DNA from: Planctomycetales bacterium
Lineage (GTDB): Bacteria > 4484-113
NCBI GenBank assembly: GCA_030606285.1
Contig: JAUWGS010000018.1
Span: 1-43,519 of the forward strand
Direction: 5' to 3'
Length of the DNA: 43,519 bases
Part shown: positions 16,630-32,439 of the stretch, piece after piece
How the letters are laid out: each line of letters opens with the position of its first letter
Position numbering within the stretch: position 1 is the first letter of the stretch
Translations under genes and position numbers: made by a program
Notes under the pieces: model-generated
Database searches by the model: none
Seen by the model: the letters and a program-made list of their open reading frames with translations, nothing else
What the model was told of the DNA's origin: nothing

Positions 16630-17045
16630 TGACTTACCTGATGCGCATATTCGTTATCGCGATTCTGACAGCAGCAGCCGTGGCGGGTCTGGCGCTTGCC
16701 AAAACACAGGTTCCGGGCAGTGAGGGCGATCCGATAGTGACAAAGAGCTACGTGGATATGCAGGCCGTCTGGGATACGCGCACCGTCTCGCAGAACTCGT
16801 TTTACAAGCTCGCCTCCGGCTGCGAGATGGTGGTTGCGGAGACGGAGGGCGGCCTTGACGAGCTCTCGTTAAAGGACGCGAATCTGGGCGAATGTGCGCT
16901 GCTGGATCTCACTACCGGCGAGCGGCTCGACAGGATGGTGCTTGCAGTGGGGCACCACTATCTGGTCGGGCCGGGGAAGGAAGCGCGGCTCACGTTTAAC
17001 GGCGGCGGCACAGTGATGACGAGAGGCCTTGCGCCTGAGGAGTAG
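16629..17045 (+). CDS. Small secreted protein of the DUF5693/CsaB cluster
   Basis: This 138-residue protein has a signal peptide (hydrophobic residues about 5-24, ending LALAKT). The mature part carries GDPIVTKSYVD, a phrase seen in secreted proteins of Gram-positive bacteria. It ends with a glycine-rich GPGKEARLTFNGGG strand region. I do not recognise a catalytic motif. Start ATG 16629 shares a base with the previous stop and ATG 16644 is an alternative. The next gene starts on the last base of this stop. Its position argues for a role in envelope assembly. Confidence 0.75.
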   Translation: MTYLMRIFVIAILTAAAVAGLALAKTQVPGSEGDPIVTKSYVDMQAVWDTRTVSQNSFYKLASGCEMVVAETEGGLDELSLKDANLGECALLDLTTGERLDRMVLAVGHHYLVGPGKEARLTFNGGGTVMTRGLAPEE

Positions 17046-19066
17046 TGGAGACGCTGATGGATAATCTGCGCAGGAGTCTGGTCTACATCTTCCTCATACT
17101 GGGGCTGGCGGCGGCGCTGGGCATCCTCATGCAGCGCGTTGGATGGGATCGCGAGAACCGCAAGGTTATGCTGGTGTACGACGCCGGCAGCTTCTCCCAG
17201 CTGGCGCAGGCGGGAGTCCCGGTCTCCCTGCCGTCCCCCGCGGCGGTCGGCGTCAATGAGGCGACTATCCGCTCCCTGATCGAACTTGGCTACCTTTCCC
17301 GCATAGATTTCGCCAACGGCGGCGAGACCTTCAGGTTCGTCATTCCGCGCGAGACATTCTTCGAGTTCGACACTGCCGAGTCTTCGCTTCTCACCGAGAG
17401 GATTCGCACGTGCCTGAGCTGGCAGCTCGTGGGAGGCTTCGAAGTTGCAGTAAAGGGCTTGAACCGTCCAGACGAGCCGCCGTGTCTTCTGGGCATTATC
17501 GCACTGCCGCCGCTGTCCGAAGAAGACCGGAATTCGCTGGCACTTGGCTTCTACTTGCGCCCGGAGTTTTCGCTGCCGGACGAGTACGCGCTTGTCTTTC
17601 GCCCCAACGGCAACGGGCTGATGGACGCCGAGGCTGTGAAGCGCAAGTTTTCGTGGATACCGCAGGATCCCCGCGCGTCATCGCTCATTGTGTTTTCCGG
17701 CACGCAGGTGTCCGGGTATCCTTCAGGCGTGAGGTGGGCGGCGAACGAGCTTCCGGGCGAGCTGGGCTTGGTTGAGTTCTCAGCGCTCGACGGCGACCGT
17801 GCGCTGGCAAGCTACTTGCCGCCGGAGAAAATCTTCTGGGCGCATTCGATACCAATTGATGAGATTCCGCAGATGAGTCCGGATGCGATGGTGCAGCGCT
17901 TTCTGCGGGCGCTCAGGGAGCGGAATCCCCGCGTGCTGTATATACATCCTGTAACCGGCTCTCAGAGGATCGCACCAAGGGCCGACCTGCAGGCGGCTGC
18001 GCTGGAAGCGAACTCGAAGTACGTGCAAGCGGTAGTGGATGGAGTGAGAGGGACGGGCTTTGAGCCGGCGCTAAAGCTGTCGAATCCGTCGCAGGACCCG
18101 CCTCTGGCGTTGCGCGCGCCTGTCGTGTTACTGGTATATCTCGGAATACTGTGGATTGTGCTCATCTACTTCCCCGGCGGACGGCTGGCGGCGTTTTTGG
18201 GACATCCGGCGACGATGCTCGTCGGCCTGGCTGCGAGTTTCCCTATCGCGAGCGTTTCCAACCTGCGCGCCCTGGCGGCGCTTGTCGCGGCGCTTGCGTT
18301 TCCACTGGTAGGCATCGGTTACGCCCTCAAGTATTACTGCGAGCATCCGGGGCGCAGCAGGTGGCGATTGCTGCCATTCTGGAACGCGCTTGCCGCCTTT
18401 GGCATCGCGTTTTTATTCACGCTGCTCGGCGGGGCGATTATCTACAGCCTGCTCACGGGCGTGGCCGCGTTCGTTAAGCTGGAGTTCTTCCGAGGGGTTG
18501 TACTTTCCCGGGGAGTGCCGGTGATAGTGGCACTCGCGTACTTCTACAATCTGGCTGAACTCGACTGGGCGCCGGCCGCCCGCAATATGTATGCGCGCAT
18601 CAACCGGGTTTTCGGGCGTCCGGTGACGTACCTGGATTTTGCGCTCATAGTCATCCTGGTAGCGGCGCTGGGCGTTGCGCTGTTGCGCGCGGGCAACGAT
18701 TTCGGCTTTCTGGTCAGCGGGACTGAAACCACTGTGCGCGGCACTCTCGAACAGATTTTCGGCGTGCGCCCGCGCACAACTGAGCTGGTCGGGCACTTCG
18801 CAATGATAGCGTTCTTCGTGCTGCTGCCGTGGAAACATCGCAGCCTGCTTTTGCTGCTGGCGGCAGGAACAATGGCGCTCAGCAGTGTGGTGAACACGTT
18901 CTCCCACCTGCACACGCCGCTTATAGTGAGCGTTTACCGGACGTTGCTGGGATTGATGCTCTCACTTCTGGCGGCGGTTGTGGTTTATGTTGTCGTCTGG
19001 GCAGCCGCCAGAGCTTACAGGTTGCTGCGCCCAGGCTCCAGTGCCAGGAGTACACATGGCGGATAA
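17045..19066 (+). CDS. DUF5693 polytopic membrane protein
   Basis: This 673-residue protein has an N-terminal helix (residues about 11-30), a large outside domain to about residue 355, and then roughly nine membrane helices to the end. The combination with CsaB directly downstream is the usual context of DUF5693 in Firmicutes and some other phyla. The outside domain has the characteristic opening KVMLVYDAGSFSQLAQAG, as in family members that read NV.l..D...f..la. The start is GTG 17045, overlapping the previous stop, with GTG 17045 and ATG 17057 as the two choices. It probably supplies or flips a cell-wall precursor for CsaB-dependent pyruvylation, by inference from context. Confidence 0.75.
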   Translation: METLMDNLRRSLVYIFLILGLAAALGILMQRVGWDRENRKVMLVYDAGSFSQLAQAGVPVSLPSPAAVGVNEATIRSLIELGYLSRIDFANGGETFRFVIPRETFFEFDTAESSLLTERIRTCLSWQLVGGFEVAVKGLNRPDEPPCLLGIIALPPLSEEDRNSLALGFYLRPEFSLPDEYALVFRPNGNGLMDAEAVKRKFSWIPQDPRASSLIVFSGTQVSGYPSGVRWAANELPGELGLVEFSALDGDRALASYLPPEKIFWAHSIPIDEIPQMSPDAMVQRFLRALRERNPRVLYIHPVTGSQRIAPRADLQAAALEANSKYVQAVVDGVRGTGFEPALKLSNPSQDPPLALRAPVVLLVYLGILWIVLIYFPGGRLAAFLGHPATMLVGLAASFPIASVSNLRALAALVAALAFPLVGIGYALKYYCEHPGRSRWRLLPFWNALAAFGIAFLFTLLGGAIIYSLLTGVAAFVKLEFFRGVVLSRGVPVIVALAYFYNLAELDWAPAARNMYARINRVFGRPVTYLDFALIVILVAALGVALLRAGNDFGFLVSGTETTVRGTLEQIFGVRPRTTELVGHFAMIAFFVLLPWKHRSLLLLLAAGTMALSSVVNTFSHLHTPLIVSVYRTLLGLMLSLLAAVVVYVVVWAAARAYRLLRPGSSARSTHGG

Positions 19067-30853: not shown

Positions 30854-31846
30854 TCAATCGTCCTTCGGCTTCTGCTCTCCCAGAAAGAACTCCCGCAGGT
30901 TTATCTCCGACCATTCCCAGAAGCCTGTGAAGTCCTTGCAGCTCTGAGGCACCACGACAGCGCGCACTGATATGTCGCCTCCGCCAAGCTCGAGGTAATA
31001 TGGCAGCCCGGGATCCTCCCGTGCGACCAGCCAGATCTCTCGAAGATACGGAGCCTGCACCTTCATGAGCGCCTTTATGAATTGGGGGTAGATGCTATCG
31101 AACAGCTCACTCTCTTCCTGTCCCATCGCGTTGATTAGCACTCGCTCGGCGTAATAGAGATGTTCGGTGAAGGAAAAGCGCACTTCGCGCCGAAAAGCCA
31201 TGGGAAGAAAGGTGAATCTCACGCGGTGGAAGGCGAATTTGCCACTGATACAGCGTGGCCGCTGGTGGAAGCGGTGGGGGCTATCACTGCGCTTCCCCAT
31301 CAATCCTTGCAAGAGCGTCAAGTCGCTCTCGGGGCACCCAACCACTGCAAGGGGGGCGTAACATCGGTAATGCAGCGCCAGCTCGCGTTGCTCGCCCGCC
31401 TGTCCGTCCTCGGCAGTCTGCGGCGCCTTGTTCTTTGCGGTGGCGAACCGCGCGTTCCCGCGTCCGCCGCGCCCACCGCCGACGATAGTAAAGCTCTGTC
31501 CGTGGCTCGTTATTTCGGCAAGCTGGAATCGGCTGGCGCGGTCATAAACGATGGTGCCCAGCGGCACTTTAAGAGCCAGAAACTCAGCGTCAGACCCGTG
31601 CCGCCTGCCACCTTCACCATCTGCGCCGTTGCCAGCCTTCCAGAAGTCCAGCTTTGTGAGGTGCTCCAATCCTTCCCCGCTCTCGTCTCCCACGAGCACT
31701 ATGTCGCCGCCGCGTCCGCCATCCCCACCGTCGGGACCGCCTTTCTCCTTGTATTTGAAGCGCGCGAAGTGGACTGCACCGTGGCCGCCCCTGCCTGCTT
31801 GCACAGCGATCTCGGCTTCATCCTTGAAGGATGCTGCGCGCGTCAT
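30854..31846 (-). CDS. Obg-like protein with a degenerate GTPase domain
   Basis: Residues 1-158 of this 330-residue protein are a good Obg fold, glycine-rich and collinear with canonical Obg: GGPDGGDGGRGGDIVLV, KVPLGTIVYD, GGRGGRGNARFATAKNKAP. After that the expected G domain is barely recognisable. Where Obg has GFPNAGKST, this protein reads VVGCPESDLTLLQG (residues 168-181), and VAREDP (274-279) stands where NKxD is expected. The DxPG switch motif is missing. There is no frameshift or stop, and the gene is translationally coupled (ATGA) to rnhB, so it looks maintained, not decayed. It may keep a ribosome- or partner-binding role without GTP hydrolysis. Confidence 0.75.
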   Translation of the reverse strand: MTRAASFKDEAEIAVQAGRGGHGAVHFARFKYKEKGGPDGGDGGRGGDIVLVGDESGEGLEHLTKLDFWKAGNGADGEGGRRHGSDAEFLALKVPLGTIVYDRASRFQLAEITSHGQSFTIVGGGRGGRGNARFATAKNKAPQTAEDGQAGEQRELALHYRCYAPLAVVGCPESDLTLLQGLMGKRSDSPHRFHQRPRCISGKFAFHRVRFTFLPMAFRREVRFSFTEHLYYAERVLINAMGQEESELFDSIYPQFIKALMKVQAPYLREIWLVAREDPGLPYYLELGGGDISVRAVVVPQSCKDFTGFWEWSEINLREFFLGEQKPKDD

Positions 31847-32439
31847 ACCGGCAGCCTCATTTGCAGTGCCCTTCTTACCGGCGCGAAGCTCGCGCGGTGC
31901 AGTTTGAGCGGCCCGTGCTCCGCGAGTTCGCGTAGGTGTTGCGGAGTGGGGTAGCCCTTGTGGCGTGCGAAGGAAAACTGCGGATGCCTGCCTTCAAGCT
32001 CGCGCATCAGCGCATCCCGGTGCACCTTTGCCAGTATGCTGGCGGCGGAAACTGCGGGGACGCTTGCGTCCGCTCTTACCAGCGCACGTCCGCGGGGCAT
32101 TCCGTCCGGATAGAACCTGCCGTCAGCCACGATATCCATCACCTTACCTTTGCGCTCCAGTGTGAGGAAAGCCCGCCGCATCGCCAGCAGGGAAGCCTGC
32201 AGAATGTTTAGTTTGCAGATCTCGGTCGGCGAAGCTTCGGCAACGGCCCATGAGAGCGCCTCACGCTGGATGATTTCGGCTAGGGCTTCTCGCCGCGGCG
32301 CACTCAGCTTCTTGGAGTCAGTCAGTCCGGAGATTCGGCAGCGGGGGTTCAGCACGACCGCTGCCGCTACAACCGGGCCCGCAAGCGCGCCGCGCCCGGC
32401 TTCATCCAGTCCGCACACAAGCTCAAGTCTTCGTCTCAC
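31843..32439 (-). CDS. rnhB: Ribonuclease HII
   Basis: This 198-residue enzyme cleaves RNA in RNA/DNA hybrids, including single ribonucleotides. It shows the N-terminal catalytic GLDEAGRGALAGPVVAAAVVL (Asp-Glu pair), LTDSKKLS, the third acidic residue in VRADASVPAVSAASILAKVHRD, and HKGYPTPQH near the C-terminus. It overlaps the CPBP-like gene upstream by 17 bases and the Obg-like gene downstream by 4, so it sits in a coupled operon. Confidence 0.95.
   Translation of the reverse strand: MRRRLELVCGLDEAGRGALAGPVVAAAVVLNPRCRISGLTDSKKLSAPRREALAEIIQREALSWAVAEASPTEICKLNILQASLLAMRRAFLTLERKGKVMDIVADGRFYPDGMPRGRALVRADASVPAVSAASILAKVHRDALMRELEGRHPQFSFARHKGYPTPQHLRELAEHGPLKLHRASFAPVRRALQMRLPV

Follow-up and report, generated by a model that had tools for sequence, protein, structure and literature searches.

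The Obg/CgtA/ObgE family, of which B. subtilis Obg, E. coli ObgE and human GTPBP5 are representatives, consists of single-copy, two-domain proteins with an N-terminal Obg domain. In E. coli ObgE, this domain reaches the peptidyl-transferase centre of the ribosome, and the usual neighbourhood of the bacterial gene is rplU-rpmA-obg-nadD. A genome survey has reported obgE in more than 99% of bacteria that do not belong to the candidate phyla radiation, and deletion of the gene kills E. coli (PMC12641178). The essential role of Obg may lie in docking at the peptidyl-transferase centre or in sensing of GTP and ppGpp. A precedent for ribosome assembly with a G protein that does not use nucleotide is found in yeast: the pre-40S factor Tsr1 is essential and mimics a translational GTPase although it has none of the nucleotide-binding motifs (PMC4895721).

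The gene described here lies in a window of 43,519 nucleotides, the whole stretch of DNA that was analysed. Its product resembles Obg/CgtA/ObgE in the N-terminal Obg domain, the two-domain organization, the single copy and the predicted fold of the whole chain, and sister families share the rpmA-obg-nadD context; it differs in that all five G motifs are gone and that its score falls below the NCBIfam cut-off. The closest working analogue is Tsr1, likewise a factor of ribosome assembly that combines a G-domain fold (predicted in our case) with the loss of all nucleotide-binding motifs. However, Tsr1 belongs to an EF-Tu/SelB-like family and acts on the eukaryotic small subunit, while the protein under study is bacterial, belongs to the Obg family and is expected to act on the large subunit. 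Another member of the Obg superfamily, YchF/OLA1 (L053), is encoded in the same genome by a separate gene; unlike the protein under study, it has an intact GxxxxGKS motif (GPEGTGKS) and no Obg domain. No earlier report of an Obg pseudo-GTPase was found in a literature search.

The gene should be classified among the obg orthologues, as a pseudo-GTPase, and the label Obg GTPase does not apply to it. As to function, we consider it probable that this phylum-wide orthologue is a structural pseudo-GTPase, a nucleotide-independent placeholder or anti-association factor of the 50S subunit whose binding and release we infer.

Motif loss, copy number and gene context

Table 1. Position of the pseudo-Obg gene, its domains and former motifs, and the upstream gene.
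Feature	Position	Strand	Remarks
obg orthologue, pseudo-GTPase	30854..31846	minus	330 aa; ATG 31846-31844, stop 30856-30854
N-terminal Obg domain, residues 9-160	31367..31822	minus	Pfam GTP1_OBG match
Degenerate G domain, residues 161-330	30857..31366	minus	predicted G-domain fold, no G motifs
Former P-loop (G1), now VVGCPESDL, residues 168-176	31319..31345	minus	alignment with 31 canonical Obg
Former switch II (G3) ADIPG, now TFLPM, residues 212-216	31199..31213	minus	proline kept in 8/8
His229, histidine of the Obg FLRHIERT segment	31160..31162	minus	kept in 8/8 relatives
Former NKxD (G4), now AREDP, residues 275-279	31010..31024	minus	alignment
rnhB, ribonuclease HII	31843..32439	minus	upstream of obg; NCBIfam ribonuclease HII, E 5e-69

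The Obg domain is recognized by Pfam GTP1_OBG (PF01018) with an E-value of 5.8e-47 (1.2e-47 in the search of the genome). The NCBIfam model Obg_CgtA (TIGR02729) covers residues 7-174 only, and its score of 168.3 bits compares with a cut-off of 280.25. The G1 P-loop, G3 DxPG, G4 NKxD and G5 SA motifs are all absent from the window Obg and from seven orthologues of its phylum. In the alignment of the window Obg, GFPNAGKST has become VVGCPESDL, DxPG has become FLPM and NKxD has become AREDP. Each of the 31 canonical Obg proteins of other phyla carries a P-loop of the form GxxxxGKS[TS], and all 31 keep the lysine and serine of the P-loop, the aspartate and glycine of switch II, and the lysine and aspartate of G4.

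A first-pass annotation of this DNA had described a well-kept Obg domain followed by the P-loop and NKxD replacements listed above, a missing switch II motif, and an intact frame coupled to rnhB by ATGA. These claims are borne out by the Pfam match, by alignment with canonical Obg and by the sequence itself, in which the 330 codons are uninterrupted; the strand, which that annotation did not give, is the minus strand. The TGA of rnhB overlaps the ATG of obg as ATGA (31846-31843), and the same overlap is found in two relatives of the window's own family (G001 and G002).

The phylum, which has rarely been sampled, is represented by 10 genomes (G000-G009) from one class and four families, G000 being the genome of the window. 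A PF01018 search detected no second Obg in the latter (2.3 Mb, 91% complete). Exactly one match was obtained in 8 of the 10 genomes, and the two without a match are 84-85% complete. When all eight sequences were read, the P-loop and NKxD were found to be missing from every one, and the frames were intact. The G002 orthologue is 76-77% identical to the window Obg over the whole length; this identity, together with the same loss in eight species, makes either chance or sequencing error untenable as the cause. When 289 genomes were surveyed with the full-length Obg model, 254 exceeded the cut-off and none of the ten genomes of the window's phylum did so, although scoring above it is no proof that the motifs are intact: those of G128 and G157, which were chosen for reading on account of their lower scores, are partly degraded. 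The one relative that a DNA-pattern scan of genome contigs brought up was an ordinary Obg from Micavibrio, whose P-loop is intact.

A canonical GTPase Obg was also sought among the 13 MMR_HSR1 matches of the window's genome, and every match was otherwise assigned: Der (two), MnmE, HflX, FeoB, RbgA, IF-2, SelB, EF-Tu, YchF, LepA and EF-G-like proteins, with the match at C26 (689 aa) assigned to EF-G by size. Der, RbgA, HflX, YchF and LepA are intact. Era above the family cut-off was found in none of the 10 phylum genomes (1.5-4 Mb), and the genes of the window's genome that match the Era model more weakly encode other GTPases, Der and MnmE among them. According to a review, the only known losses of Era are in groups whose genomes are strongly reduced (PMC10582724), whereas the genomes of this phylum are of free-living size. 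EngB/YsxC above cut-off was likewise absent from 13 of 13 genomes, namely those of the window's phylum plus three of a second small phylum considered below; this absence carries less weight, as the cut-off of that model is exceeded in no more than 6 control genomes.

Gene context supports orthology. The rpmA gene, encoding bL27, lies directly upstream of obg in G003, G004 and G005 (family f2), and nadD lies downstream in G005 as well as in G007 and G008 (family f3). Conservation of this arrangement in two other families indicates that the gene is neither a paralogue nor an artefact. In the window's own family (G000, G001 and G002), obg has moved and is now found behind rnhB. In a tree of Obg domains, the eight sequences of the phylum form one group (98/84). 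Hence, the gene is the obg orthologue of the phylum.

Ribosome contacts, predicted fold and selection

The residues of ObgE that contact the ribosome were taken from PMC4028186: R24, R25, K27, K31, loop 2, R136 and R139. Of the eight pseudo-Obg proteins, seven retain R25 and six retain K27, and the position of R136 is occupied by arginine or lysine in all. R24 is replaced in all eight (by alanine in seven and by aspartate in one), K31 is lost in five, and the basic residues of loop 2 and R139 are partly kept. With contacts partly kept and partly lost, docking on the 50S subunit appears plausible from the sequence.

The same residues might be read differently, as the mark of a protein that has left the ribosome and whose Obg domain is a generic RNA-binding platform for another role, such as binding of RNA or of a signal protein. 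Partial loss of the basic residues of loops 1 and 2, with R24 gone in 8/8 and K31 in 5/8, would fit such a role. So would the transfer of obg from a ribosomal-protein neighbourhood to rnhB in the window's family, and the lack of Era or EngB matches above cut-off in the phylum, which would mean that ribosome assembly has been rewired. We regard this possibility as unlikely, however, since other families retain the rpmA-obg-nadD context, the glycine-rich protrusion and R25, K27 and R136 are largely kept, and the model of the whole chain matches ribosome-bound ObgE.

That model was obtained with AlphaFold2 from the eight-sequence alignment, using the whole chain, and depicts a two-domain, Obg-like protein (pLDDT 84.4, pTM 0.79). 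It matches GTPBP5 (7o9k_G) with Z 18.9 and ribosome-bound ObgE (7bl2) with Z 17.2, in both cases with an rmsd of 3.9 over 300 residues. Residues 164-326 of the model match Arf-type G domains (Z 10-11, rmsd 3.4 over 145), and the Obg domain is 36% identical to the N-domain of human GTPBP5 over 152 columns, with an rmsd of 2.9. The C-terminal half is thus predicted to keep the G-domain fold, a prediction that may be biased toward Obg as this half was folded together with the Obg domain. Searches of Pfam and PDB sequences with the dead domain gave no significant relatives, a profile of the dead domain had no significant match in 279 genomes outside the window's phylum, and when its profile was compared with that of canonical Obg G domains, no significant match emerged. 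Assignment of the G fold rests, therefore, on the model, the position in the chain and the gene context.

The lack of any sequence-family or profile match is also what one would expect if the C-terminal half were an unrelated replacement domain instead of a worn G domain. We consider such a replacement improbable: the predicted order of strands and helices follows that of a G domain, the half can be overlaid on the G domains of Obg and Arf just where a G domain belongs in the chain, and three residues stand in register. The latter, invariant in 8/8 pseudo-Obg proteins when the alignment is anchored on the Obg domain, are a proline of strand 2, the switch-II proline and the histidine of FLRHIERT. 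Nucleotide-binding positions, on the other hand, have been lost in differing ways among the eight proteins. Retention of structural columns combined with varied loss of nucleotide positions is the pattern expected from selection for shape without nucleotide.

The partial motif loss seen outside the phylum, in G128 and G157, indicates that intermediate states exist, and might raise the thought that the G domain still binds nucleotide in a non-canonical manner. This is very improbable because the lysine and serine/threonine of the P-loop, the aspartate and glycine of switch II and the lysine and aspartate of NKxD are all absent, and no conserved substitute residue is found at the nucleotide positions among the eight sequences.

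Selection was assessed by comparison of the window's genome with G002, the two being the closest pair of species. For the whole protein, pN was 0.14 and pS 0.69 (Nei-Gojobori). The dead G domain had a pN of 0.129 and a pS of 0.717, with dN/dS of ~0.06, and the Obg domain a dN/dS of ~0.11; the values for two comparison genes were 0.16 (rnhB) and 0.11 (folD), and all these ratios are only rough because dS is near saturation. The protein is under strongly purifying selection, and its dead domain is constrained no less than the Obg domain and is not decaying. A pseudogene, or an assembly or sequencing artefact, in favour of which only the draft status of the genome speaks, is refuted by orthologue conservation, with intact frames in eight species and dN/dS of ~0.06-0.11, and has practically no probability left.

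Altogether, loss of the motifs in a protein that is under selection makes pseudo-GTPase status well supported. The first-pass annotation had proposed precisely this, a pseudo-GTPase and not a pseudogene, and had suggested a genome search, a structure prediction and dN/dS among orthologues as checks. Its proposal has held: a single Obg is found, with no canonical Obg or G domain elsewhere in the genome to restore; the fold is kept in the model; dN/dS of ~0.06-0.11 (G000 vs G002) speaks against relaxed selection; the loss is phylum-wide, which excludes the sequencing error that had been named as a refuter; and the gene occupies the canonical obg position in other families of the phylum.

A probable nucleotide-independent Obg

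If pseudo-Obg is a placeholder on the large subunit, as we favour, it has most likely preserved the insertion of its glycine-rich Obg domain into the peptidyl-transferase centre of the late pre-50S particle. The G fold, which would be unable to hold GTP, is most likely still a fixed wedge for docking that packs against the stalk base and the sarcin-ricin loop. Displacement would then be brought about by maturation of the rRNA, by another assembly GTPase (Der or RbgA) or by incoming translation factors, and not by a GTP cycle of its own. Such a protein would also fail to respond to ppGpp at the G site.

The phylum appears to have lost the GTPase alone while keeping the predicted fold and the constraint, and would amount to a natural separation-of-function experiment. 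These observations suggest that the nucleotide switch of the normally essential Obg is dispensable in the window's phylum. Pseudo-Obg would also be a ready-made, GTP-blind Obg for trial on E. coli ribosomes.

Obg in other lineages

A second small phylum, represented by three genomes (G090, G231 and G289), has Obg proteins without P-loop or NKxD in 3/3 cases (L104, L105 and L112). They are shorter than the window Obg, with open frames of 279-303 aa, and their dead domain is not recognized by the profile built from the dead domain of the window's phylum. The model of the second-phylum Obg is poor (pLDDT 50), and in the Obg-domain tree the branch that bears on its origin has a support of 82/37, with long branches. 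Motif loss in this second phylum is possibly independent of that in the window's phylum.

A tentative scenario, to which we would not yet commit ourselves, is that the whole phylum builds its 50S subunit with a nucleotide-independent Obg, that the GTP switch was lost in the common ancestor of the phylum along with Era and again, independently, in one further phylum or more, and that the scaffold is the irreducible function of Obg.

Other departures from the canonical protein were seen outside the phylum. In the Obg of G128 (L102), an intact P-loop is accompanied by the altered motifs DMPA and NRRD, and that of G157 (L103) has GRS for GKS and ELPG, with NKxD absent. No Obg domain was found in G082, G104, G286, G011 and others, which are 98-99% complete. 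Elsewhere in the window, positions 17045-19063 of the plus strand encode a DUF5693 family protein of 673 aa, with no function assigned. Within the phylum, the pseudo-Obg of G003 (L007) carries in its dead domain a low-complexity acidic insertion of ~45 residues that is found in this species only.
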